DNA from: Actinomycetospora sp.
GTDB lineage: Bacteria > Actinomycetota > Actinomycetes > Mycobacteriales > Pseudonocardiaceae
Direction: 5' to 3'
NCBI GenBank assembly: GCA_029266415.1
Contig: JAQSWW010000062.1
Span: 1-32,610, forward strand
Length of the DNA: 32,610 nt
Made by a program: the position numbers and the translations under genes. Positions 12,939-31,396 of the stretch are shown here, in pieces. The notes under the pieces are model-generated. The model worked only from the letters and a program-made list of their open reading frames with translations, was not told where the DNA came from and did not search any database. Every line of letters starts with the position of its first letter. Positions within the stretch are counted from its first letter, which is position 1.

Positions 12939-13619
12939 TTAAGGCGAGGCCGCCGGCACCGCGATCGCGGTGATCACGAGCCCGTCGCGCACGATCCAGC
13001 GCCCCTCGAAGGACGCGATCGCCACCCCGTCGACGACGGGTCCCGGCACACGGAGCGCGGCGCGGAAGGTGCCGTCGGCGGCGGGGACCAGCTCGGCGTC
13101 CTCGAAGCCCAGCCAGCACCGGGTCAGCGGGAACCACGCCTTGTAGACGCTCTCCTTCGCGCTGAACAACAGCTTGTCCCAGCGCACGTCGGGGCGTTCG
13201 CGGGCGAGCCGGTCGAGCACGGCGCGCTCCCCCGCGTCGCTCACCGCCTCGAGCACGCCGTCGGGCAGCGCCGTGTGGGGCTCGGCGTCGAGACCGACCG
13301 TGCGGACCTCGTCGCGCCAGGCCACGGCCGCCGCTCGGAACCCGGCGCAGTGGGTGATCGCGCCGACGATCCCGTCGGGCCACACCGGCGCCCGCTTCTC
13401 GCCCACCGGCACGGCCGCCCCGGGCACCCCGAGCCGGGTCAGTGCCGCCCGCGCGCAGGCCCGGGCGGTGGTGAACTCCGCGCGGCGCGTCGCGACGGCC
13501 TGCGCCACCGCAGGCTCCTCCTCGGGCGCGAGCACGGCGGCCGGGTCGTCGGCGGTGGCGGCCACGGTGACGACGGGGGCGGGGAGGACGGCGGCCAGCG
13601 CCGGGTCGACGGCGGTCAC
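12939..13619 (-). CDS. pptT: 4'-phosphopantetheinyl transferase (Sfp/PptT type)
   Basis: This 226-residue enzyme transfers phosphopantetheine from CoA to a Ser of carrier proteins (ACP, PKS, NRPS). Family motifs are PVWPDGIVGAITHC (ITH 88-90), the magnesium-binding VGLDAEPH (Asp111, Glu113) and WDKLLFSAKESVYKAW (Lys154, Glu156, Lys160), all intact. The GTG start overlaps the stop of the metallophosphoesterase gene upstream (GTGA). In Mycobacterium tuberculosis pptT (Rv2794c) follows Rv2795c (pptH) in the same way. PptH there removes phosphopantetheine from carrier proteins, so this pair likely forms opposing steps of carrier-protein maturation. It is cytoplasmic. The gene symbol rests on motif and context, not a full-length alignment. 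Confidence 0.88.
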   Translation of the reverse strand: MTAVDPALAAVLPAPVVTVAATADDPAAVLAPEEEPAVAQAVATRRAEFTTARACARAALTRLGVPGAAVPVGEKRAPVWPDGIVGAITHCAGFRAAAVAWRDEVRTVGLDAEPHTALPDGVLEAVSDAGERAVLDRLARERPDVRWDKLLFSAKESVYKAWFPLTRCWLGFEDAELVPAADGTFRAALRVPGPVVDGVAIASFEGRWIVRDGLVITAIAVPAASP

Positions 13620-14527
13620 GAGCGGGCCCACCGGCTGCGCTGCTCGGCCGCCCAGGCGGTGAACGGATCGAGGCCGTCGACGTCGGCGCCGGGCAGGACC
13701 TCCCGCAGCGCACCGCGGACGAGGCCGTGGCGCTGCCACTCCTTCGGATAGCCCACCGACACCTCCTCGCAGCGGACCCCGTCCTCGACGGTGGTGCGCG
13801 GGATGTGCAGGTGCCCGTAGACCACGGCGGCCGCGTCGTGGCGGACGTGCCAGTCGGCCGTGGCCGTCGTTCCGCACCACAGCGCGAACTCGGGGTGGCG
13901 CAGGATGCGCGTCGGCGTCGGGGTCAACGGCCAGTGGTTGACCAGCACCGTCGGCATCCCGGGCGGGCGCTCCGCGAGGCGCGCCCCAGTCGCCGCGACG
14001 CGGTCGGCGCACCAGGCCGCGGCGTCCGGGTACGGGTCGCAGGACATGAGGATCTCGTCGGTGGCGACCACCCCGGCCTCGCGGGCGACCTCGAGCGCGG
14101 CATCGTTCGACCAGTCGTCGGGGATCGAGGGCGGGCGCACGGAGTAGTCGTAGAGCAGGAACATCGGGCACACCAGCGCCGGGCCGCCGTCGCCCTCCCA
14201 CACCGGCCACGGGTCCTCGGGGGTGAGCACGCCGAGGTCGCGGCAGGTGGCGACGAGGTGGTCGTAGCGCGCCGGGCCGACGAGGTCGACCTCGTCACCG
14301 GGCGGGGTCCACAGCTCGTGGTTGCCGGGCACCCAGATCACCCTGGTGAAGCGCTCGGCGAGGACCTCCAGCGCCCAGGTGGTGGTCGCGACGCGGTCGC
14401 CGACGTCGCCGGCGACGATCAGCCAGTCGTCCGGGTGGGTCGGGTGCAGGTCGCGGACCAGGTCCTCGTTCTCGCTGCGGTTGACGTGCAGGTCGCTCGT
14501 GGCCAGCAGGCGCGGGCGGCTGCTCAT
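13616..14527 (-). CDS. pptH: Metallophosphoesterase, PptH-like phosphopantetheinyl hydrolase
   Basis: This 303-residue calcineurin-like phosphoesterase has SDLHVN (Asp12, His14), VAGDVGD (Asp41), VPGNHEL (Asn69-His70), a VNHWPL and a YGHLHIP near the C-terminus, so all metal ligands are present. Its placement directly ahead of and overlapping the PptT-like gene matches Rv2795c/Rv2794c of M. tuberculosis. There the esterase hydrolyses phosphopantetheine from holo-carrier proteins and counteracts PptT. Assignment to that activity is inference from context and fold. The start is the ATG at 14527 with GGGAGGA just upstream; a GTG further out would add eight residues. It is the first gene of the minus-strand unit pptH-pptT-DUF1992. 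Confidence 0.8.
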   Translation of the reverse strand: MSSRPRLLATSDLHVNRSENEDLVRDLHPTHPDDWLIVAGDVGDRVATTTWALEVLAERFTRVIWVPGNHELWTPPGDEVDLVGPARYDHLVATCRDLGVLTPEDPWPVWEGDGGPALVCPMFLLYDYSVRPPSIPDDWSNDAALEVAREAGVVATDEILMSCDPYPDAAAWCADRVAATGARLAERPPGMPTVLVNHWPLTPTPTRILRHPEFALWCGTTATADWHVRHDAAAVVYGHLHIPRTTVEDGVRCEEVSVGYPKEWQRHGLVRGALREVLPGADVDGLDPFTAWAAEQRSRWARS

Positions 14528-14635
14528 GGGGTCCTCCCTGTCTCCCGGCACGCCACGCTACGGACTCGGTGCGGGCTCCGGCCGCCCATGGTGATCGGTC
14601 TCCCGAGCAGCCCTGCCGGCCCGCGGTTTGGCACC

Positions 14636-15871
14636 ATGAAGGCCGTGCCGCCGCGCCACCGCCCGTCGCTGCCGATCCCGGCACGGATCCGGACGGTCAT
14701 GGCGGAGGGCGACTACGAGCGCGCCGGTCTCCTCGACGGCCTCACCGGCGACGACCGGCGCACCCGGGTGTCGGTGCTCGAGTCGCTGGCCGCCGACGGC
14801 GTCGACATCGCGACGATGCGCGACGCGATCGAGCGCGATCGCCTCGGGCTGCTGCTGCTCGAACGGACGCTGCGCCCGGAGGACGGGCACTCGCTCAACG
14901 ACGTGTGCCGGCTGACGGGCATCGAGGACGACGTCGTCCGGCGCTGGTTCCAGGGCCTCGGGCGCCCGCTGGCACCCGATCCCGACGAGGCGATCTACAC
15001 CGACGAGGACGTCGAGATCGCCCAGCGCATCCACCGCTACCGCCAGCTGGGCTTCACCGACCAGGAGATGATGCCCGTCGTCCGGGCGATCGGACGCGGC
15101 GTGCTCAACATCGCCGACGCCCTCGGCGGGCTGCTCGGCGAGGCCCTGCTGCACGACGAGCCGGAGCCCGAGCTGGCGCTGCGCTACGCCACCGAGGCCC
15201 GGCGCATCGTCGAGGACGACTCGCTGCACCTGGTGCACCTCGTCGCCGCGGCGCTCGCCGACCGCATCCGCTCGCACGCGCTGGCCGTCGAGGAGTCCAA
15301 CGCCGGTCGGCTGCGGGGCGCGCAGGAGGTCACCGTCTGCTTCGCCGACCTCGTGGGCTTCACCGACCTCGGTGAGTCGGTGTCCGCCGTCGAGCTCAGC
15401 GAGGTCGCCGAGATGCTCTCGGCGTGCGCCACCGAGGTGTCGGCGTGGCCGGTGCGCCTGGCCAAGGTCATCGGCGACGCCGTGATGCTCGTGTCGCCGG
15501 ACCCGACGGCGCTGGTCGGCGCGGCCGTGGACCTGCTCGAGACGTGGTCGAGCGCCGACGACGGGCGCCCCGCGCTGCGCGTCGGCGTGGCCACCGGCAT
15601 CGGGGTCCCGCACGCCGGCGACTGGTTCGGGCCGCCGGTCAACCTCGCCAGCCGCGTCACCGAGACCGCCCGGCCGGGCCAGGTGACGGTCACCGCGGCG
15701 GTGCACGACGCCGTCGTGGCCACGGCGCCGGACGACCCGCCGTTCCGGTTCCGCGCGGCGGCCCCCCGCAAGTTCAAGGGCGTGCGCGGCGCGCAGCGCC
15801 TCTACCGGGTCCAGCCCCGCCACCCGTCCGGGTCACACCGCAACGCCGCGCGCACCGATCGGGTGGACTGA
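14636..15871 (+). CDS. Class III adenylate cyclase with Rv1264-like N-terminal regulatory domain
   Basis: This protein is about 411 residues long. Residues 11-215 form a helical N-terminal domain (RPSLPIPARIRTVMAEGDYERAG, then a MerR-like turn LNDVCRLTGIEDDVVRRWF) like the pH-sensing autoinhibitory domain of mycobacterial Rv1264. Residues 228-400 form the cyclase domain: metal Asp238 in CFADLVGFTD, KVIGDAVML with the adenine-specifying Lys277 and metal Asp281, and the transition-state pair Asn336/Arg340 in NLASR. All key residues are present, so it should make cAMP. Possible starts are 14588, 14636 and 14699. I use 14636, as homologues begin just before RPSLPIP, but no clear ribosome-binding site is seen and the mRNA may be leaderless. 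It is divergent from pptH. Confidence 0.85.
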   Translation: MKAVPPRHRPSLPIPARIRTVMAEGDYERAGLLDGLTGDDRRTRVSVLESLAADGVDIATMRDAIERDRLGLLLLERTLRPEDGHSLNDVCRLTGIEDDVVRRWFQGLGRPLAPDPDEAIYTDEDVEIAQRIHRYRQLGFTDQEMMPVVRAIGRGVLNIADALGGLLGEALLHDEPEPELALRYATEARRIVEDDSLHLVHLVAAALADRIRSHALAVEESNAGRLRGAQEVTVCFADLVGFTDLGESVSAVELSEVAEMLSACATEVSAWPVRLAKVIGDAVMLVSPDPTALVGAAVDLLETWSSADDGRPALRVGVATGIGVPHAGDWFGPPVNLASRVTETARPGQVTVTAAVHDAVVATAPDDPPFRFRAAAPRKFKGVRGAQRLYRVQPRHPSGSHRNAARTDRVD

Positions 15872-22360: not shown

Positions 22361-22398
22361 TGCGCGCTCGTCCGTGCCCCGGCACGGACGAGCGCTCA
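22361..22398. repeat. Intergenic palindrome, GTGAGCGCTCGTCCGTGCC family
   Basis: Fifteen-base arms (22364-22378 and 22381-22395) are perfectly complementary around two bases. The stop codon of the thioesterase gene (22396-22398) abuts the hairpin, so it can serve as its terminator. A related half copy with GCGCTCGTCCG lies at 22338-22348, 26 bases upstream of the same string at 22364-22374. The arm matches the palindrome at 5771-5810. Confidence 0.75.
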
Positions 22399-22740
22399 CG
22401 AGGCGGAGCCGAACGCGGCCCGGTCGACCACCACGCGGTCGATCTCGCCGTCGGCGACGTAGTGGCCGTCCCCGTCCACGGCGCTGACGTCGAAGGTGAG
22501 GCGGTCGCCCTCGGTGGTGAGCGACGCGTACACGTCGACCGTCCCGCCCACCGGCGTCGGGCGGCGGTGCCGGACGCGGATGGCGGCGCCGACGGTGGTC
22601 TGGCCGGGGCCGAGGCGCGGCGCGGCCTCGGCCACCGTCGCCGCCTCCAGCCAGGCGATCAGCCGGGGCGTGCCCAGGACCGGGAGGTCGCCGCTGCCCA
22701 GGGCGACGGCGGTGTCGTCGTCGGTGACGGTGTGCGTCAT
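22396..22740 (-). CDS. FlK-like hot-dog thioesterase
   Basis: The 114-residue protein has the hot-dog fold signature of the FlK (fluoroacetyl-CoA thioesterase) family. LPVLGTPRLIAWLEAATV places Thr24 and Glu32 where FlK has its catalytic Thr/Glu, and IRVRHRRPTPVGGTVDV supplies His58, the third member of the triad. Small soluble proteins of this type hydrolyse short acyl-CoA esters. The gene is transcribed in the same direction as the 2-hydroxyacid operon but lies about 190 bases beyond its last gene, so it may be separate. A hairpin overlaps its stop. The 22741-22933 stretch holds no other gene. Confidence 0.75.
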   Translation of the reverse strand: MTHTVTDDDTAVALGSGDLPVLGTPRLIAWLEAATVAEAAPRLGPGQTTVGAAIRVRHRRPTPVGGTVDVYASLTTEGDRLTFDVSAVDGDGHYVADGEIDRVVVDRAAFGSAS

Positions 22741-22933
22741 CCCGGGGATGGTAGGTCGTCGGCCCGCTCGCGCGCGGCGTCGCGGCGACCGTCGTCGACC
22801 GAGCGCGCAGGGCCAGCACCAGGGCAGCCGCCGCGTGATGCGGCGGTAGACCGCGTCGGGCCGGAGCCCGGAGGTGGGTGTCGACGTGGTGCTCCTCGTC
22901 GGTGACGTCTCCCCCCGGGGCTCCGGCCGCGGG

Positions 22934-24586
22934 TCACATGCTCGGCGCGTCGGCGTTGCTGGGGGTCTTCCGTTGCGACGTGATGTCGTCGAAGCGGCGC
23001 CTGATGTACTCGCCGCACCGGACCGCGAGCGCCCCGATGGTCGAGGTCGGGTTGACCGCGGCCCCGGTGGTCAGGGCACTGCCGTCGACCACGAAGAGGT
23101 TCGGCAGGTCCCAGGTCTGGTTCCACTTGTTGAGCACCGAGTCGTCGGGCGAGTTGCCCATGCGGCAGGTGCCCATGAGGTGCCAGCCCGGCGGCGGGTG
23201 CAGCACCCCGGTGTCGTTGGTCTCGACCGCCCCGACCGCCCGCGTGGCGTCGAAGATGCGCTCGATCCCGTACTCCGCGAGCGCGATGTCGTTCGGGTGC
23301 AGCGCGTAGTCGACGTGCGCGGCCGGGATGCCGTCGGAGTCGGTGACCTCGGGGTCGAGGGTCACGCGGTTGGTCTCCACGGGCAGGTCCTCGCCGAACA
23401 TGAAGACCATGAGGTGGTTGGCGAAGTGCCCCTCGAAGAACTCGCGGTGCTTGCGGCCCCACGGCGCGGTGTAGCCGGTGTGGGTGCCCATCGCGGCGTA
23501 CGAGGGCCCGAAACTGCGGGCCACCTGCATCCCGAAACCGTTGACGAATCCCCGACTGACGTCCGTGTGGTAGAACTCGTGCGAATAGAGCGGGGCGCCG
23601 AACGAGCCCTTGAAGCCCTCGACCGGTTCGTCGAACCACGAGTCGCAGAACGCGAACACGTGGTGCATCAGGTACTTGCCGACGATGCCGTTGGCGTTCG
23701 CCAGCCCGTTCTCGTGCCCCTTCTGGGCGCTCTGCAGCAGCAGGCGCGGCGAGCCGATACCGTTGGCCGCGAGCACGACGATCTTCGCCCGCACCTCGTG
23801 GCGATCGCCCGTGTTGCGGTCGATGTAGACCGCGCCGGTGGCCTTGCCGCCCTCCGCGGTGATGGTCTCGACGCGCGCCATGGTCCGCAGGTCGGCGCCG
23901 TCGCGGACGGCGTAGGGCCAGTGCGCGTTGGCCGGCGTCGACAGCGACCCGCGCGGACATCCGGACAAGGCGTTCCCGTCACCGACGTCGGCCTCGCGGT
24001 TCTCCCGCGGCTTGGTGATCACGGCGTTGTCCGAGGGCCACCAGTGCCAGCCCAGGTCGCGGGAGGCCCGCGCGTACTTCAGCCCCAGCTTGCCGGGCAG
24101 CACCACGGGGTCGCGCTGGGCGTTCTTGCGCGGCGGGTAGGACGGGTCGCCGATGAGCCCCGAGATGCCGTAGACGGCGTCGTTCTCGTCGTAGAACGGC
24201 GCCAGGTCCTCGTAGGAGATGGGCCAGTCGATCGTGCCCTCGAGCCCGTGCTCCGTGCCCTTGCGGAAGTCGACCGGCTTGTAGCGCGGCCAGTGCCCCG
24301 CGTAGTGCACGGTCGAGCCGCCGACGTTGTTCATCATGTAGGGCGTCGTGACGCCGGTGACCGGATAGTCCTCGGGCAGCTGGCGCACGTTCGGGTCGTA
24401 GGCCCACCCGCGCTGCTTCTCGATCTCCCACTCGTCGTGGTAGTGCGGGTGCTCCGGCGGCTTGACCCAGGGGCCCTGCTCCAGGCACACCACCCGCATC
24501 CCGGCCGCGGCGAGCTTGAGGGCGACCCCCGCCCCGCCGGGTCCGGCACCGATGATCAGGACGTCGGTCTCCTCGTGGCTGGCCAT
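22934..24586 (-). CDS. GMC-family oxidoreductase, candidate 2-methylpropane-1,2-diol dehydrogenase
   Basis: This 550-residue GMC flavoprotein has the FAD motif TDVLIIGAGPGGAGVALKLA (7-26) at the N-terminus, the second FAD-contacting stretch NNVGGSTVHYAGH near 95-107, and the C-terminal GWHLMGTCRMG and NPTSTIGALAVRCGEYI. It has no signal peptide, so it is cytoplasmic. With the small subunit encoded just upstream (seven bases apart) it forms the pair seen in gluconate-type alcohol dehydrogenases. Its position in the lyase-ligase operon suggests oxidation of a tertiary diol (2-methylpropane-1,2-diol) to the hydroxyaldehyde; this is inference. It is the last gene of the five-gene unit. Confidence 0.85.
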   Translation of the reverse strand: MASHEETDVLIIGAGPGGAGVALKLAAAGMRVVCLEQGPWVKPPEHPHYHDEWEIEKQRGWAYDPNVRQLPEDYPVTGVTTPYMMNNVGGSTVHYAGHWPRYKPVDFRKGTEHGLEGTIDWPISYEDLAPFYDENDAVYGISGLIGDPSYPPRKNAQRDPVVLPGKLGLKYARASRDLGWHWWPSDNAVITKPRENREADVGDGNALSGCPRGSLSTPANAHWPYAVRDGADLRTMARVETITAEGGKATGAVYIDRNTGDRHEVRAKIVVLAANGIGSPRLLLQSAQKGHENGLANANGIVGKYLMHHVFAFCDSWFDEPVEGFKGSFGAPLYSHEFYHTDVSRGFVNGFGMQVARSFGPSYAAMGTHTGYTAPWGRKHREFFEGHFANHLMVFMFGEDLPVETNRVTLDPEVTDSDGIPAAHVDYALHPNDIALAEYGIERIFDATRAVGAVETNDTGVLHPPPGWHLMGTCRMGNSPDDSVLNKWNQTWDLPNLFVVDGSALTTGAAVNPTSTIGALAVRCGEYIRRRFDDITSQRKTPSNADAPSM

Positions 24587-24593
24587 GGGTCCC

Positions 24594-25250
24594 TCACTTC
24601 GTCCAGGAGAGCTGGGAGAGGTCGACGCGGGTGACCGCGTCGGTCTCGAGGTACGTACCGGGGCCACCGGCGTGGGCGAGCGTCTCCTCGTCCCACGGCT
24701 CGAGGGTCTCGAGGTAGCCGTAGGGCAGCGGCGGGCCGTGGTAGTCCTTGCCCGCGGGGACGTTCCGCCGGATCGCGAGGACCACCTCGGGGCGCGAGTA
24801 GTAGCCGTAGTAGACGAGCGCGCGCAGCTGCTCGAACAGCCGGTCCTCGTTCTTCTCCAACCGCGCGATCGCGTCGATCCGTTCCTCGAGGTCCCCGGCG
24901 ACGAACGCCGGACCGAGCGCGTCGAGGCCCGCCTTGAACGCGTCCTCCTCGGCGAACGGGAAGTGCTTGTTGCGGTAGCCGGTCGGGGTGACGTAGCGGC
25001 CGACGAACGCGACGATCCCGACCTCGCTCGCCGACGGCCAGTCCGGATGCGGCGGGATGATCGTGTCGGCCGCGGCCAGCAGGATCGCGGTCTGCTGCCC
25101 GTCGAACGTGACCGGGCGCTCCAGCCCGCCGAGCCGCGGCCGGCCGGTCTCGAAGAACCCGCCGCCCCAGCCGGGCGGCAGCGTCGTCTCGGGAGCGCCG
25201 AACGGTGCCGGCGACTCCCCCAATGCCTGGCTCCCTGGGTTGTCGTCCAC
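24594..25250 (-). CDS. Gluconate 2-dehydrogenase subunit 3-like small subunit
   Basis: This 218-residue protein has the subunit 3 family pattern: PVTFDGQQTAILLAAADTII then PPHPDWPSASEVGIVAFVGRYV in the first half, and LVYYGYYSRPEVVLAIRR further on, as in gamma subunits that support a GMC flavoprotein. Unlike many such subunits it has no Tat leader; the N-terminus MDDNPGSQALGESPAPFG is disordered and polar, so the pair probably stays in the cytoplasm. It is encoded between the aldehyde dehydrogenase and the GMC oxidoreductase genes with gaps of 28 and seven bases. The electron acceptor of the complex is unknown, as no cytochrome gene is adjacent. Confidence 0.8.
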   Translation of the reverse strand: MDDNPGSQALGESPAPFGAPETTLPPGWGGGFFETGRPRLGGLERPVTFDGQQTAILLAAADTIIPPHPDWPSASEVGIVAFVGRYVTPTGYRNKHFPFAEEDAFKAGLDALGPAFVAGDLEERIDAIARLEKNEDRLFEQLRALVYYGYYSRPEVVLAIRRNVPAGKDYHGPPLPYGYLETLEPWDEETLAHAGGPGTYLETDAVTRVDLSQLSWTK

Positions 25251-25278
25251 GCCTGTCTCCTCTCGGTGTGATCGCCGG

Positions 25279-26784
25279 CTACAGCGGGGCGCCGGCCCAG
25301 TCGGTGGCCGGGCGCAGCGGGTCGAGGTTGATGGCGACGTGCTTGACCTGCGTGTAGCCGTGGACGGCCTCGAGGCCCTCCTCGCGGCCGGTGCCGCTCT
25401 GCTTGTGGCCGCCGTGCGGCGTCATCGGGAGCTCGCCGAACCAGTCGTTGATCATCACGCCGCCGACCTGCAGGCGGCGGGCGGTGGAGAGCAGCCGGGT
25501 GATGTCGCGCCCGAGCAGCACCGCGAAGAGCCCGTAGATACTGTCGTTGACCTTCTCCACGAGCTCGTCCTCGTCGGACCACCCGATCACCGACGCGACC
25601 GGGCCGAAGATCTCCTCCTGCGCGATCCGTGCGGTGTTGACGACGTCGGTGAACACCGTCGGCTCCACGAAGTAGCCGCCCGCGTGCACGCCCTCGGGGC
25701 GCCCTCCGCCGTAGTAGAGGGTGGCCTCGGACTTGCCGATCTCGATGTACTCGCGCACCCGGTCGTACTGCCGCTGCGAGACCAGCGGACCCATCTGCGT
25801 GCCCTCGGCGAACCCGTCGCCGACCCGGGTCGCGTCCAGGCGCATCGACAGCTTGCGCAGGAACGGCTCCCGGACGTCGCGGTGCACGAACAGCCGGGTG
25901 CCGGCGACGCAGACCTGCCCCGTGTGCGAGCAGAAGCCCTGCACCGCGGCCTCGACGGCCTCGTCGAGGTCGGCGTCGGGGAACACGACGGTCGGGCTCT
26001 TGCCGCCGAGTTCGAGGTTGACCTGCGCGACGTGGTCGGCGCCGAGCTTGGCGACCTGCTTGCCGGTCTCCGTGGAGCCGGTGAACGTGATACCCGCGAC
26101 GTCGGGGTGCGCGGCGAGCGCGGCACCCGCCTCCCCTCCGTAGCCGGTGACGACGTTGAACACACCGCCGGGGAAGCCTGCCTCGGCCACCAGCTCGGCG
26201 AACTTCAGCGCCGAGAGGGACGTGTCCTCCGCGGGCTTGACCACGCAGGTGTTGCCCAGCGCCAGCGCCGGGGCCACCGACCGCGTGAGGATCAGGAGCG
26301 GGTAGTTCCACGGCACGATGTGCGCGGTGACGCCGAGCGGCTCGAGGATCGTGAACGAGAGCTTGTTGCCCGGCACCTCGATCTGGCGGCCGCCGACCTT
26401 GTCGGCGAGGCTCGCCCAGTAGTCCAGCCACAGCGGGATGGCGCCGACCAGCTCCTGGGCCTTCGCGAGGTAGTGGCCGGAGTCGAGGGCCTCGAGGCGC
26501 GCGAGCTCGTCGGCGTGCTCGGTCACCTTCGCGGCGAGCGCCCGCAGCAGCCCGGCCCGGACGATCGCGTCGGTGAACTGCCACTCGACGGCCACGCGCC
26601 GGGCGGCAGCCACCGCCCGGTCGACGTCCGTGGCGTCGCCGCGCGGGACCTGCGCGATCGTCTCGCCGGTGTTCGGGTCGACGGTCGGGAACGTGGCGCG
26701 GGACGCGCCGGCCGACCACGCACCGGCGATGAACATCTGCGCGTGCTCGACCCGGCGCGCACTGGTGTCGAGGGTCAGGGACAT
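25279..26784 (-). CDS. NAD(P)-dependent aldehyde dehydrogenase, candidate hydroxyisobutyraldehyde dehydrogenase
   Basis: This 501-residue ALDH superfamily protein has all catalytic residues: PWN (Asn160), Lys183 in VVKPAEDT, the general base Glu258 in NLELGGKS and nucleophile Cys292 in HTGQVCVAGTRL; EEIFGPV is at about 393. It oxidises an aldehyde to the acid with NAD(P). Located between the CoA-ligase gene and the GMC pair, it would convert 2-hydroxyisobutyraldehyde to 2-hydroxyisobutyrate if the operon degrades the diol. The ATG at 26784 has GAGAGG upstream; the GTG nine bases earlier would crowd that site. A 30-base gap separates it from the ligase gene. Confidence 0.88.
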   Translation of the reverse strand: MSLTLDTSARRVEHAQMFIAGAWSAGASRATFPTVDPNTGETIAQVPRGDATDVDRAVAAARRVAVEWQFTDAIVRAGLLRALAAKVTEHADELARLEALDSGHYLAKAQELVGAIPLWLDYWASLADKVGGRQIEVPGNKLSFTILEPLGVTAHIVPWNYPLLILTRSVAPALALGNTCVVKPAEDTSLSALKFAELVAEAGFPGGVFNVVTGYGGEAGAALAAHPDVAGITFTGSTETGKQVAKLGADHVAQVNLELGGKSPTVVFPDADLDEAVEAAVQGFCSHTGQVCVAGTRLFVHRDVREPFLRKLSMRLDATRVGDGFAEGTQMGPLVSQRQYDRVREYIEIGKSEATLYYGGGRPEGVHAGGYFVEPTVFTDVVNTARIAQEEIFGPVASVIGWSDEDELVEKVNDSIYGLFAVLLGRDITRLLSTARRLQVGGVMINDWFGELPMTPHGGHKQSGTGREEGLEAVHGYTQVKHVAINLDPLRPATDWAGAPL

Positions 26785-26814
26785 CGGTGTCACCTCTCGC
26801 GTGGGTGATGGGGG

Positions 26815-28212
26815 TCAGCGGCGGGTGTGCTCGCGCTCGTCGACGACGCGGCGGGCCTTGTGCTCGGCGCGCTCGAGGGTGCCGGCATCGACGGACTCGA
26901 AGGTCACGCGGACGCCGAGGAGGGACTGCAGGCCGGCGCCGGTGTCGCGCTCGAACCGCTCGCGCTGCCCGGGCGGCAGCGTGCACTCGGCCCGGACGAT
27001 CATCTCGTCCATCGAGCCGGTGCGGCGGACGACGATCTGGTGCTCGCCGCCGTAGTCCGCCACGCCCCGCAGGTAGTTGTCGACCTCGGTCGGGTACACG
27101 TTCTCGCCGCGGATGTGGATCATGTCGTCGATGCGGCCGTAGACCCCGTCGGGCAGCTTCGGGTAGGTCCGGCCGCAGGGGTTGTCCTCCATCACCCACC
27201 GGGTGAGGTCGTTGGAGGCGAGCCGGATCATCGGCTGCGACGTGCGCTCGAGGTGGGTGTAGACCGGTGTGCCCTCGGAGCCGTAGGGCACGGTGCGGAA
27301 CGAGCCCGGGTCGCACACCTCGTGCCACACGATGTCCTGCCAGAGCAGCATCCCGTCGGGCGTGCCGGCGGTGGCCGACGCCGACATGAACGGCGTCATC
27401 TCGGCCATCGTCCCGCAGTCGATCACCGTGGCGCCGAACGCGTCCTCGATGGCCTTGCGCACGGTGGGCACGGATGCGCCGGGCTCGCCGGAGAAGAACA
27501 TGACCTTCAGCCCGAACTCGCGGGGGTCGATCTTCTCGGACTCGGCGACCTCGGCGAGGCGCAGCGCGTAGGAGGGCGTCGCGTAGAACGCCGCCGGCTG
27601 CACCCGCGCGAGCCAGGTGACCGCCCGCGCCGTCATGCCCTGCGCGCCGGCCCCGAACGGCAGGACCCGGCAGCGCAGCCGCTCGGCCGCGGTCATCGCA
27701 CCCCAGGAACCCAGGTAGAGCGAGAACAGCGCGGCGACGAACACGGTGTCGCCGGGCCGCACGCCCATGCCCCACAGGATGCGGGCCTGGTTGTCGGCGA
27801 TGACCTCCCAGTCGCGACGGCCGAGGGCGAACGCCGTCGGGGCGCCCGTGGTGCCGCTCGTCCCGTGGATGTGGTGGATCTCGGACTCGTCGCAGCACAG
27901 GTAGTCGCCGAACGGCGGGTGGTTCGCCTGGGACTCCCGCATCTCGGCCTTGGCCACGACCGGGACCTGCTCGAAGGCCTCGAAGGAGGTGATGTCGGCG
28001 GGCCGCAGCCCGGCCGCGTCCCACTTGGTCCGGTAGAAGCTCGAGGTGGAGTACGCGTACTCCATGACCTCGCGCAGCCGCACGAGCACCGCAGCGTCGC
28101 GCTCCTCGGGATCCATCGTCTCGCGCACGGGGAACCAGTAGGGCGAGTCGGGGTCGGGCAGGTAGCTCTGGTCGTAGCGGGCCGGGAAGTGCCACTCCTC
28201 CATCGCCGTCAC
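26815..28212 (-). CDS. hcl: PaaK-like acyl-CoA ligase, candidate 2-hydroxyisobutyryl-CoA ligase (HCL)
   Basis: This 465-residue adenylate-forming enzyme has phenylacetate-CoA ligase architecture, with the P-loop-like [15 protein letters not shown] (115-129), the [18 protein letters not shown] region, and the C-terminal hinge [20 protein letters not shown]. It activates a carboxylate as acyl-AMP and then acyl-CoA. In Actinomycetospora chiangmaiensis the ligase for 2-hydroxyisobutyrate (HCL) lies directly downstream of the lyase gene, as here. The GTG at 28212 overlaps the lyase stop (GTGA) and has GGAGG five bases upstream; the ATG at 28203 is too far from it. The substrate call is from gene context and family size; PaaK-like enzymes for aromatic acids look similar. 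Confidence 0.82.
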
Positions 28213-29984
28213 TGCTTCCTCCGCTCGATCTCGGCGTCGTTCCAGGGGGTGAGGGCCTGGTGGTCGGGCACGAAGCCCAGGCCCTTGTCGGCGTCGGGGG
28301 ACGGCGCGTCGCGGCTCGTCACGACGTCGACGACGGCGGGCGCGTTCTCCAGCGCGCGCCGGATCGCGTCCGGCAGGTCGGCCGGATCGGTGACCCGCTC
28401 GCCGTGGGCACCGAGGCTGCGCCCGAGCGCCGCGTAGTCGGAGTCCGCGAGCTCGGTGCCGACGACCAGCCCGTAGTTCTCCTGCTGGTCGTAGCGCTCG
28501 ATGTTCCACGCGGCGTTGTTGGAGACGATCACGACGATCTTCGCGTCGTGCCGCACGGCGGTGTCGATGTCGGTGGCCGTGATGCCGAAGGCGCCGTCGC
28601 CGGTGACGGTCACGACCGGGCGCTCGGGCATCGCCAGCGCCGCCGCGACCGCGAAGGGGGTCCCGACGCCCAGGCACCCGAAGGCACCGGGGTCGAGGTA
28701 GCGCGCGCAGCGGGTGATGCCGAGCCGGGCGAAGGAGAGCAGGTCACCCCCGTCGGCGATCATGACCGTCTCGCCGAGGTCGAGCGCCGACCCGTCGAGG
28801 GCGTCGAGGGCGGCGAAGATGCGGTTGGGGTGCATGCGGCCGTCGGCGCCGGCGGGCGCCTCCGCCAGCGCCGCCCGGTACTCGGCACTGCGCTTCTCGT
28901 GCTTGGCGCGCAGCTCGTCGCGCCAGCTCGTGTCGGGGGTGTGGTCCTCGAGGGCCCGGGCGAGGGCGTCGAGCGCGGCCGCCGGATCGGCGAGGATCTC
29001 GACCTCCCCGCGGCGGTTGTCGATCAGCTCGCTCGCGGTGTCGGCGATCCGCACGACGGTCGCGTGCCGGAACACCGCGGGCGAGCCGAACCCGAGCTGG
29101 TAGTCCAGCTGGCGACCGACGGTGATCAGCAGGTCGCAGTCGCGCATGACCGCCGAGCGGGCGGAGCCGACGCCGGCGGGGTGGTCGGCGGGGACCAGGC
29201 CGCGCGACTCCTGGGTGTCGAGGTACGCCGCGCCGCTGGCGTCGAGGAAGCGGACGAGCGCCGATCGCTGCTGCTCCCCCTCCGCTCCGCGGCGTGTGCC
29301 CCCGCCGGTGACCCGCGCTCCCCGCCCGGAGATCACGGCGGGCTTCCGGGCGTGCCGCACCAGGTCGGCCGCGGCCGCGACGTCGTCGGGGTGGGGCTGC
29401 GGGCGGCGGCGGGGTTTGACCCGCAGGTGCTCGGCGGTCACCAGCGCCGGCGGGACCTGCTCGCGCAGCACGTCGGTGGGGATCTCGACGTACACCGGGC
29501 CCGGCTCGCCGCGGTCGCCGGCGGCGCGCGCCCAGGCCTCGTCGAGCTCGCGGAGCACCTGGTCGGCCACCCGGAGTGTGCGCGACAGCCGGGTGACCGG
29601 GGCGAGGATCTCGGTGTGCGGGATGTCCTGCAGCGGGCCCATGTTGGCCTGTGGGCGGGGCGGGCAGCCGCCGAAGACCAGCACGGGAATCCGGCTGATC
29701 GAGGCGTTGGCGACGGCGGTGACGGTGTTGGTCACCCCCGGCCCGGCGGTCACGAGCGCCACGGCGGTCTCGCCGGTGAGCTCGGCGTGGGCGTGGGCCA
29801 TGTGCACCGCCGAGCCCTCGTCGCGCACGTCGACGATGCGCACGCCGAGCCGGGCGAGCTGGTCCCACACCGGCTGGATGTGGCCGCCCTGCAGCCCGAA
29901 GACCCGGTCGACGCCGTGGTCGCGGAAGAACCGCGCGACCAGGTCGGCGACGACGACCGGGCCCTGCTCCCCGTCCTGGGCCAT
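28209..29984 (-). CDS. ThDP-dependent 2-hydroxyacyl-CoA lyase (HACL), 2-hydroxyisobutyryl-CoA type
   Basis: This 591-residue ThDP enzyme has conserved Glu56 in [11 protein letters not shown], which activates the cofactor, and GDGAFG (462-467) with NN (489-490), which binds Mg-ThDP. The helix [11 protein letters not shown] places Ile495-Glu496 where the Actinomycetospora lyase has I492 (substrate size) and E493 (proton transfer). GPLQD puts Leu118 where that enzyme probably has L127. A long C-terminal tail (about 510-591) fits its lid domain. It would cleave 2-hydroxyisobutyryl-CoA to acetone and formyl-CoA. Residues of about 228-240 ([13 protein letters not shown]) look like an in-frame insertion. 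GAGGAGG precedes the ATG. First gene of the operon, divergent from the GntR gene. Confidence 0.85.
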
Positions 29985-30067
29985 CCGGGACCTCCTCCTC
30001 GTCGAGTCGTCCGGCGGCGGACCCGTGAGACGCGACACGTGACGGGACCCACGTCGACGGTGCCGCA

Positions 30068-30081
30068 TTCTGAATTCAGAA
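30068..30081. promoter_or_regulatory. Perfect 14-bp palindrome, candidate GntR operator
   Basis: TTCTGAATTCAGAA lies in the 146-base gap between the divergent lyase operon (start 29984) and the GntR regulator gene (start 30131). It is fully self-complementary and exceptionally AT-rich for this genome. On the minus strand a TTGACT (30081-30086) abuts and overlaps it by one base, a good -35 for the operon, though no clear -10 follows at the normal distance. Palindromes of this kind are typical GntR/FCD binding sites. The rest of 29985-30130 holds nothing else I can identify. Confidence 0.75.
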
Positions 30082-30130
30082 GTCAAGGACTGGCGGAGAC
30101 TCTCCGCGAACCGACCAGGCGCTACGCTGG

Positions 30131-30868
30131 GTGGACGACCAGCCGTGGAGGATCGCCGAGGAGGCCGTCCGTGCCGCTCGCCGCGCCGAGCCCGGAGCGT
30201 CCGGTGTGACCGCGCTCCCCCACCCGCCGTCGCGCACCGAGCAGGTCTTCGACGCGATCGTCGACGACATCTGCACCGGTCGGCTGACACCGGGCACCCC
30301 GCTGCGCCAGGAGCACCTGGCCGAGCGCTTCGCCGTGTCCCGCCAACCCGTGCAACAGGCGCTGCTGCTCCTGCGCAACCAGGGCCTCGTGCGCGAGTTC
30401 GGGCGTCGCGGACTCGAGGTGGCGCCGCTCGACCGCGAGTTCGTCACCCACCTCTACGACCTGCGCGAGCTCCTCGACGGGTACGCCGCGCGGCTCGCCG
30501 CCGACCGGCGCAGTGAGGAGTGGCTCGCGGAGGCGGCCGGGATCGTGCACCTCGGCGAGGTCGCCTACTCGGAGCGGGCGTTCGCCCGGATGATCTCGGC
30601 CGACGTCGACTTCCACCGGTCGGTGGTCGAGGCGGCCGGCAACCCGCTGCTCACGGAGAGCACGGCGGTGATGTGGCGCAACGTGCAGCGCGTGATGGGC
30701 GAGGTGCTCCTGCAGGGCGGCTCGCCGGCCTGGGTGTGGGAGGACCACGCCGCGATCCTCGACGCGATCCGCCGCGGGGACGCCGCCGACGCCGAGGAGC
30801 TCGCGCGCCGCCACGCCGCGCACGGCGAGCGGCTGATCCTCGACGCGATGGGCGCGCCGGAGGACTGA
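30131..30868 (+). CDS. GntR-family transcriptional regulator, FCD (FadR-like) subfamily
   Basis: This 245-residue regulator has a winged-helix N-terminal domain: [39 protein letters not shown] then [15 protein letters not shown] and a wing, [11 protein letters not shown]. It is followed by a helical FCD ligand domain, with [17 protein letters not shown] and the metal/ligand-binding His in DFHR and [14 protein letters not shown] proteins typically respond to small organic acids and repress divergent catabolic operons, which fits its placement facing the lyase-ligase genes. The GTG at 30131 gives a 25-residue N-terminal extension; a GTG at 30206 begins nearer the domain. Its stop is three bases from that of the gamma-CA gene. 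Confidence 0.87.
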
Positions 30869-30871
30869 GCG

Positions 30872-31396
30872 TCAGCTCGTCGCGTCGCGGTGCACGCCGA
30901 GCAGGTGGCGGTACGTGGCCGCACTCGCCCGGATCATGTCCTGCTCCTGCGCGGAGACCTCCCGGCGCACCTTGCCGGGCACGCCGGCGACGAGGGAGCC
31001 CGGCGGGACCACGACGCCCTGGGAGACGACGGCGCCCGCCGCGACGATCGACCCGCGACCGATCGTCGCCCCGTTGAGGATCACCGCGCCCATGCCGATC
31101 AGGCAGTCGTCCTCGACCGTGCAGCCGTGGACGACCGCGCGGTGCCCGACGGTGACGCCGTCGCCGATGGAGGCCGGGAAGCCGGGGTCGGCGTGCACGA
31201 CCGTGCCGTCCTGGACGCTCGTCCCCTCGCCCACCGTCACCGACTCCATGTCGGCGCGCACGACCGTCGTGTACCAGACGCCGGTCTCAGGGCCGATCGT
31301 CACGCGCCCCGCGACGACGGCGCCCGGCGCGATCCACGCGCCCGGGTCGATCTGCGGGGTGTGACCGTCGACGGTGATCAGCTGCACGCCCGGCAT
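30872..31396 (-). CDS. Gamma-class carbonic anhydrase-like protein
   Basis: This 174-residue left-handed beta-helix of hexapeptide repeats (IGPETGVWYTTVVRAD, VTVGEGTSVQDGTVVHAD, IGDGVTVGHRAVVHGC and so on) has the zinc triad His68, His85, His90 spaced as in gamma carbonic anhydrases of the Cam/YrdA/PaaY group. A C-terminal helix begins VRREVSAQEQDMIRASAATY. It may hydrate CO2, or act as a thioesterase as shown for PaaY, which would fit acyl-CoA metabolism next door. The ATG at 31396 starts directly at the first repeat; a longer frame adds an unrelated N-terminus. It converges with the GntR gene, so it is not in the lyase operon. Confidence 0.85.
   Translation of the reverse strand: MPGVQLITVDGHTPQIDPGAWIAPGAVVAGRVTIGPETGVWYTTVVRADMESVTVGEGTSVQDGTVVHADPGFPASIGDGVTVGHRAVVHGCTVEDDCLIGMGAVILNGATIGRGSIVAAGAVVSQGVVVPPGSLVAGVPGKVRREVSAQEQDMIRASAATYRHLLGVHRDATS

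Follow-up and report, generated by a model that had tools for sequence, protein, structure and literature searches.

What is encoded by the six genes that fill positions 22934-30868 of contig JAQSWW010000062.1, a 32,610-nucleotide stretch from the draft genome of Actinomycetospora sp. (assembly GCA_029266415.1; the whole stretch is called the window here)? The gene set very probably specifies the degradation of 2-methylpropane-1,2-diol (MPD) and 2-hydroxyisobutyrate (2-HIBA) to acetone and formyl-CoA, as in Actinomycetospora chiangmaiensis. The assignment is based on orthology, gene order, conservation of the active site and a palindrome that is conserved within a promoter-like spacer. The operon and its interpretation are already known from the A. 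chiangmaiensis cluster described in PMC7176365; new here are a candidate operator, the behavior of the operon as a presence/absence cassette, and the patchy occurrence of its aldehyde dehydrogenase gene.

Five of the genes are transcribed from the minus strand, beginning with a thiamine diphosphate (ThDP)-dependent 2-hydroxyacyl-CoA (2-hydroxyisobutyryl-CoA) lyase (28209-29984; ATG start, 591 residues; TPP_enzyme N, M and C domains and a match to NF058623). There follow hcl, a 2-hydroxyisobutyrate-CoA ligase gene (26815-28212; GTG start, 465 residues; AMP-binding_C_2 domain of the PaaK type), an aldehyde dehydrogenase of the MpdC type, which would act on 2-hydroxyisobutyraldehyde (25279-26784; ATG, 501 residues; Aldedh), a small subunit of the Gluconate_2-dh3 family (24594-25250; GTG, 218 residues), and a GMC oxidoreductase of the MpdB type, the presumed large subunit of MPD dehydrogenase (22934-24586; ATG, 550 residues; GMC_oxred_N and GMC_oxred_C). 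The GTG start of the ligase overlaps the TGA stop of the lyase in the tetranucleotide GTGA at 28212-28209. Because the distances between the five genes range only from -4 to 30 bp, the arrangement is consistent with a single transcript. A gene for a regulator with GntR and FCD domains (30131-30868, plus strand, 245 residues) diverges from the lyase gene. An earlier inspection of the letters and open reading frames, the sequence-only reading, had given the bounds 22934-30868 exactly to the base, along with the gene order, the divergent GntR gene and the GTGA overlap.

The published counterpart is the lyase-HCL cluster of A. chiangmaiensis DSM 45062 (Rohwerder et al. 2020, PMC7176365; locus L019 in our survey), a member of the same genus whose six genes share the order and orientation seen in the window. 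Table 1 of that paper lists GntR, lyase, HCL, MpdC, the "small subunit of MPD dehydrogenase" and MpdB with 241, 590, 465, 501, 220 and 550 residues; the window proteins have 245, 591, 465, 501, 218 and 550, all within 4 residues. The corresponding tblastn identities are 71, 80, 91, 85, 69 and 88%. The flanks, with genes for a hexapeptide-repeat protein, an FlK-like protein and DnaG, are also alike, as is the palindrome. Cultures of A. chiangmaiensis convert MPD to 2-HIBA and acetone, with small amounts of formic acid, and growth on 2-HIBA instead of acetone raises the abundance of the five enzymes 23- to 39-fold (PMC7176365). The same paper takes the GMC/small-subunit pair for MPD dehydrogenase and ascribes the next oxidation to the aldehyde dehydrogenase, in agreement with the sequence-only proposal that these genes provide the two oxidations of the diol. 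The activity and structure of the A. chiangmaiensis lyase have been demonstrated by others. By analogy, MpdB and its small subunit would oxidize MPD to 2-hydroxyisobutyraldehyde, MpdC would convert the aldehyde to 2-HIBA, HCL would activate the acid to 2-hydroxyisobutyryl-CoA, and the ThDP lyase would cleave the thioester to acetone and formyl-CoA. For the window's own genome, expression of the operon, activity of the enzymes and their exact natural substrate are what we infer from this correspondence.

The lyase scores 1004.4 bits against NF058623, the 2-hydroxyacyl-CoA lyase model (cut-off 600), and 1015 bits against the crystal structure 7pt1 of AcHACL, the A. chiangmaiensis enzyme; the next different enzyme of known structure reaches 210 bits. 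In the alignment with AcHACL, 471 of 579 aligned positions are identical (81%); the middle domain of the window lyase is longer by 12 residues, and the N terminus is shorter. Residues His44, Thr88, Leu127, Gln128, Ile492 and Glu493 of AcHACL, whose active-site roles are described in PMC8760513 together with structures 7pt1-7pt4, correspond to His35, Thr79, Leu118, Gln119, Ile495 and Glu496 of the window protein. All six are conserved, as is the C-terminal lid. Phylogenetic analysis places the window lyase with AcHACL in a clade of 14 rows with support of 100/100. The tree comprises 41 rows: 30 of the 80 loci kept in our survey (L009-L040 less L019 and its kin set, with AcHACL replacing L019), the window, and 8 paralogous stretches. 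Given its long branches (L135, L143, L144 and L039) and its outgroups, which include no named acetolactate synthase and in which the families of L131-L134 and L136 are unchecked, the tree is secondary to the scores.

The ligase is nearer to the 2-hydroxyisobutyryl-CoA synthetase HCL (Protein Data Bank entry 6hdw; 651 bits over residues 3-463 of 465) than to PaaK (204 bits) across its full length, and the PaaK model scores 246.5 bits against a cut-off of 646. The sequence-only reading had proposed alignment of lyase and ligase with the characterized A. chiangmaiensis proteins as a check on its assignment, and both enzymes pass it, at 81 and 91% identity, respectively. In other bacteria hcl stands with genes for a B12-dependent mutase (PMC7176365); in the window, by contrast, it adjoins the lyase gene. 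A side observation concerns the relationship between the two genes. The window lyase is nearest to those of loci L009-L013 (89-91%) and less like those of L015-L021 (79-81%), whereas the window HCL is nearer to those of L012 and L015-L021 (91-93%) than to those of L009-L011 and L013 (88-89%). These affinities hint at recombination inside the operon.

The GMC protein carries a GAGPGG motif at residue 13, and His469 and Asn512 are its candidate catalytic pair. The pair of subunits is orthologous to that of A. chiangmaiensis (88 and 69% identity for the large and small subunits) and adjoins mpdC, hcl and the lyase gene. The GMC protein is only distantly related to the solved large subunits of FAD-dependent glucose and fructose dehydrogenases (6a2u and 8xcm; 158 and 149 bits). 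The small subunit, which matches Pfam Gluconate_2-dh3 with 39.3 bits (cut-off 23.4), is of the same Pfam type as theirs, and it has no credible solved relative: the best E value is 0.37 for the single sequence, and a 12-sequence profile gives no match at E up to 1. Its description as leaderless holds, as there is no Arg-Arg pair before residue 161 and no cysteine, and hydropathy is negative in every 15-residue stretch scored, with starts at each fifth residue from 1 to 41. No leader is seen in 11 aligned relatives, with starts picked as nearest to that of the window protein.

Known glucose and fructose dehydrogenases with a subunit of the Gluconate_2-dh3 type use export by the twin-arginine translocation (Tat) pathway and a cytochrome, and the gluconate 2-dehydrogenase type carries a Tat leader on its small subunit and has a cytochrome c subunit gene alongside. 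The window differs on both counts: its small subunit is leaderless, and the operon lacks a cytochrome c gene. Membership in the gluconate 2-dehydrogenase class of three-subunit membrane dehydrogenases is not borne out, as there is no leader and the six genes fill 22934-30868 without a cytochrome. Instead, the small subunit may assist a soluble FAD enzyme, either structurally or in its maturation, and not an enzyme that is exported by Tat and linked to a cytochrome. The sequence-only reading called this pairing less described. One phrase combination retrieved no paper on a GMC/Gluconate_2-dh3 pairing; the small subunit is listed in Table 1 of PMC7176365.

How is the operon controlled? A perfect 14-bp palindrome, TTCTGAATTCAGAA, lies at 30068-30081 in the lyase-gntR intergenic region and, reading identically on both strands, is a candidate GntR operator. 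It falls within a candidate operon promoter on the minus strand (30057-30086), with -35 hexamer TTGACT at 30086-30081 and -10 hexamer CACCGT at 30062-30057, whose 18-bp spacer contains 13 of the 14 palindrome bases. The palindrome is complete in 12 of the 13 other actinobacterial loci and shortened to 12 bp in L017. When the 14 loci are aligned on it, TTGAC precedes it in 14/14 (L017 has TTGACG) and CAnnnT, 18 bases past the TTGACT hexamer, also in 14/14; across the 20 positions preceding TTGAC, conservation reaches at most 10/14. An exact search of 18 genomes of the genus finds a single site in each of 13, the window's included, always just upstream of the lyase gene. There is none in the four genomes that lack the lyase, and a reversed control pattern has no match in any of the 18. 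The two counts are not independent, as most of the organisms behind the 14 loci and the 18 genomes are the same.

The palindrome in the promoter spacer has the appearance expected of a repressor site and is the likely operator of a one-site regulon, which the GntR protein would bind. Within the window no second site is found with up to 3 mismatches; among the 18 genomes, where exact sites alone were sought, no second one is listed. These searches thus give no evidence that the same regulator governs the acetone or formate branch. The main text of PMC7176365 contains none of the terms operator, palindrome and promoter. The GntR protein would repress the operon by occupying the palindrome between the -35 and -10 elements and would leave it when an inducer, either an acid or a CoA ester, binds to the FCD domain.

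The operon is found in much of the genus, though not throughout it. The lyase is present at more than 998 bits in 14 of the 18 genomes of the genus, including the window's, and absent from G004, G006, G008 and G017. In a sample of 298 genomes of the order there are four lyase matches at E of 1e-100 or better: the window's own, that of one congener, and two more with 44-50% identity. All four lyase-less congeners have the hexapeptide-repeat gene, the FlK-like gene and dnaG in that order, and in their 11-18 kb stretches none of the six operon proteins has a tblastn match; the five proteins other than the lyase were searched in these stretches only. The operon is thus a presence/absence cassette between the hexapeptide-repeat gene and the FlK-like gene. 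G004 is the closest case, with a DnaG protein 99% identical to the window's and DNA identities of 96.5% at dnaG, 93% at the FlK-like gene and 90% at the hexapeptide-repeat gene. It has 49 bp in place of window positions 22733-30878, which hold the 8.1-kb operon; in the other three, 1.2-2.9 kb separate the hexapeptide-repeat and FlK-like genes. The simplest reading of G004 is that the whole module was lost, although gain in the other genomes is possible.

Beyond the genus, a scan of genome contigs in which the best 80 of 162 confirmed lyase relatives were kept yields 12 Actinomycetospora loci, one Pseudonocardia locus (L014) and 67 loci that are proteobacterial by title (L022-L088). The proteobacterial lyases are of the AcHACL type, with 58-64% identity and the same six active-site residues. 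An HCL match of 66-67% is found only in L022 and L024; in L068 a 30% match lies 5 kb away. A protein family of about 523 residues adjoins the lyase in 63 of the 67, and its one scanned member, in L062, is a FadD-like AMP-binding ligase. It may be that another acid is activated there. The literature search on such clusters surfaced only PMC13327070, in which the matching passage concerns another enzyme.

Several observations weigh against assigning the window operon to MPD and 2-HIBA degradation. The aldehyde step is not uniformly encoded: among the 12 other Actinomycetospora loci, 7 (L009, L010, L011, L013, L018, L020 and L021) have no aldehyde dehydrogenase match in the fetched locus, and in these the ligase and small-subunit genes stand 55-125 bp apart rather than about 1.6-1.7 kb. 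These strains must draw an aldehyde dehydrogenase from elsewhere or not run the step. The sequence-only claim that one cluster covers the whole upper pathway therefore does not extend across the genus. In L020 (Actinomycetospora sp. NBRC 106378; 13149-15449) the small-subunit frame shifts near residue 120 and continues in frame into the GMC gene, through a sequencing error or damage to the gene. A table in PMC7176365 enters NAD(P)+ as the acceptor of MpdB. G013 (59% complete) has the lyase without the exact palindrome, retaining only a 12-bp version. The acetone monooxygenase family PF02332 (Mim type) is not found in the window's draft genome (84.5% complete), a difference from A. chiangmaiensis; this search, for which control genomes likewise gave no match, did not extend to acetone carboxylase or Baeyer-Villiger routes. 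PF02332 is present in 16 of the 18 genomes of the genus. Since the other genome without a match is G004 (83% complete), the near relative described above, acetone monooxygenase was possibly lost in the lineage of the two. Finally, AcHACL accepts the C5 thioester 2-hydroxy-2-methylbutyryl-CoA besides the C4 compound (PMC7176365), so the natural substrate is not fixed.

The last point underlies the most substantial rival. The same enzymes might act mainly on a C5 analogue, 2-hydroxy-2-methylbutyrate or a diol derived from isoprene or isoamylene, releasing butanone or methyl vinyl ketone with formyl-CoA, and MPD and 2-HIBA would then be one pair of substrates among several. AcHACL cleaves the C5 thioester about as fast as the C4 compound (PMC7176365), and a passage of a 2026 study (PMC13327070) mentions better binding with about 70% of the turnover; isoprene has been proposed as an evolutionary driver (PMC7176365); and the window lyase retains the counterparts of Leu127 and Ile492 as well as the lid, features that restrict the substrate to C5. 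Yet the window ligase shares 91% identity with the HCL of a strain that was grown on 2-HIBA, and 2-HIBA induces the enzymes in that strain (PMC7176365), which leaves the C5 reading rather unlikely, if by no means fanciful. A narrower doubt concerns the GMC/small-subunit pair, which could serve another alcohol, such as acetol formed from acetone, and be merely co-transcribed. The Figure 4 legend of PMC7176365 suggests a possible role of MpdB in acetol oxidation, and on plasmid pSMS3-1 of Antarctobacter heliothermus (L159, 7318-9629) a Gluconate_2-dh3 small subunit adjoins a GMC protein that shares 62% identity with the window's, and the gene table, which is incomplete, lists neither a lyase nor a ligase within 8 kb. 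Against this, the A. chiangmaiensis protein to which the window GMC protein is so closely related is itself reported to be 76% identical to MpdB of Mycolicibacterium austroafricanum, which has been shown to act in MPD oxidation (PMC7176365). MpdB and MpdC of strain IFP 2012 of that species are described in PMC7176365 with the same assigned oxidations of MPD and 2-hydroxyisobutyraldehyde. Service to a different alcohol is therefore improbable.

Slightly less probable still is a sixth pathway step by the FlK-family gene directly behind the operon (22396-22740, minus strand; fluoroacetyl-CoA thioesterase-like, FlK 82.9 bits), whose product would hydrolyze formyl-CoA. The gene is co-oriented, 193 bp behind the GMC gene, and PMC7176365 identifies no specific formyl-CoA hydrolase in A. 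chiangmaiensis. However, all four lyase-less congeners retain it between the hexapeptide-repeat gene and dnaG, in G004 the 8.1-kb operon is simply missing from that junction, and the Pseudonocardia operon L014 has no FlK in its locus. We therefore reject it as an operon member and regard it as chromosomal backbone. As for the lyase, its three Pfam domains are general to the ThDP superfamily and would suit an acetolactate synthase-like or benzoylformate decarboxylase-like enzyme, a placement that the sequence-only reading had considered fatal to its proposal. It did not materialize in model scores, structure matches or tree. The best acetolactate synthase model gives 354 bits, under its own cut-off of 587 and far from the score of NF058623; acetolactate synthases reach no more than 165 bits among the 60 structure matches listed, against 1015 for AcHACL; and the clade, the lid and Glu493, a carboxylate without equivalent in acetolactate synthases (PMC8760513), all point to AcHACL. 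This alternative can be practically dismissed.

Degradation of MPD and 2-HIBA to acetone and formyl-CoA thus remains the favored function of the window operon. Elsewhere in the genome, stretches resembling the formate dehydrogenase alpha subunit with an in-frame TGA occur on contigs C225 and C127, neither above the curated cut-off and with the position of the TGA unchecked, and SelA is encoded on C127; these findings fit the oxidation of formate by a selenium-dependent enzyme in A. chiangmaiensis. A separate feature of the window is the segment 10001-12000, where G+C rises to 83%, versus 71-77% in other 2-kb windows, and long overlapping frames occur on both strands.

A broader proposal, for and against which we see the balance as even, is that the operon is a separable MPD/2-HIBA module under a one-palindrome GntR regulon, module and operator coming and going together at the hexapeptide-repeat/FlK junction, and that its diol dehydrogenase is a soluble, cytoplasmic GMC enzyme whose leaderless Gluconate_2-dh3 subunit has been freed of its role as Tat escort and cytochrome partner. 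The lyase route from MPD and 2-HIBA to acetone and formyl-CoA has been demonstrated in a single strain (PMC7176365); by orthology it is encoded in 14 of the 18 genomes of the genus. The candidate operator might be used as a promoter part responsive to 2-HIBA, or as a marker in the search for such operons, and further lyases of the AcHACL type are of interest for one-carbon condensation chemistry.

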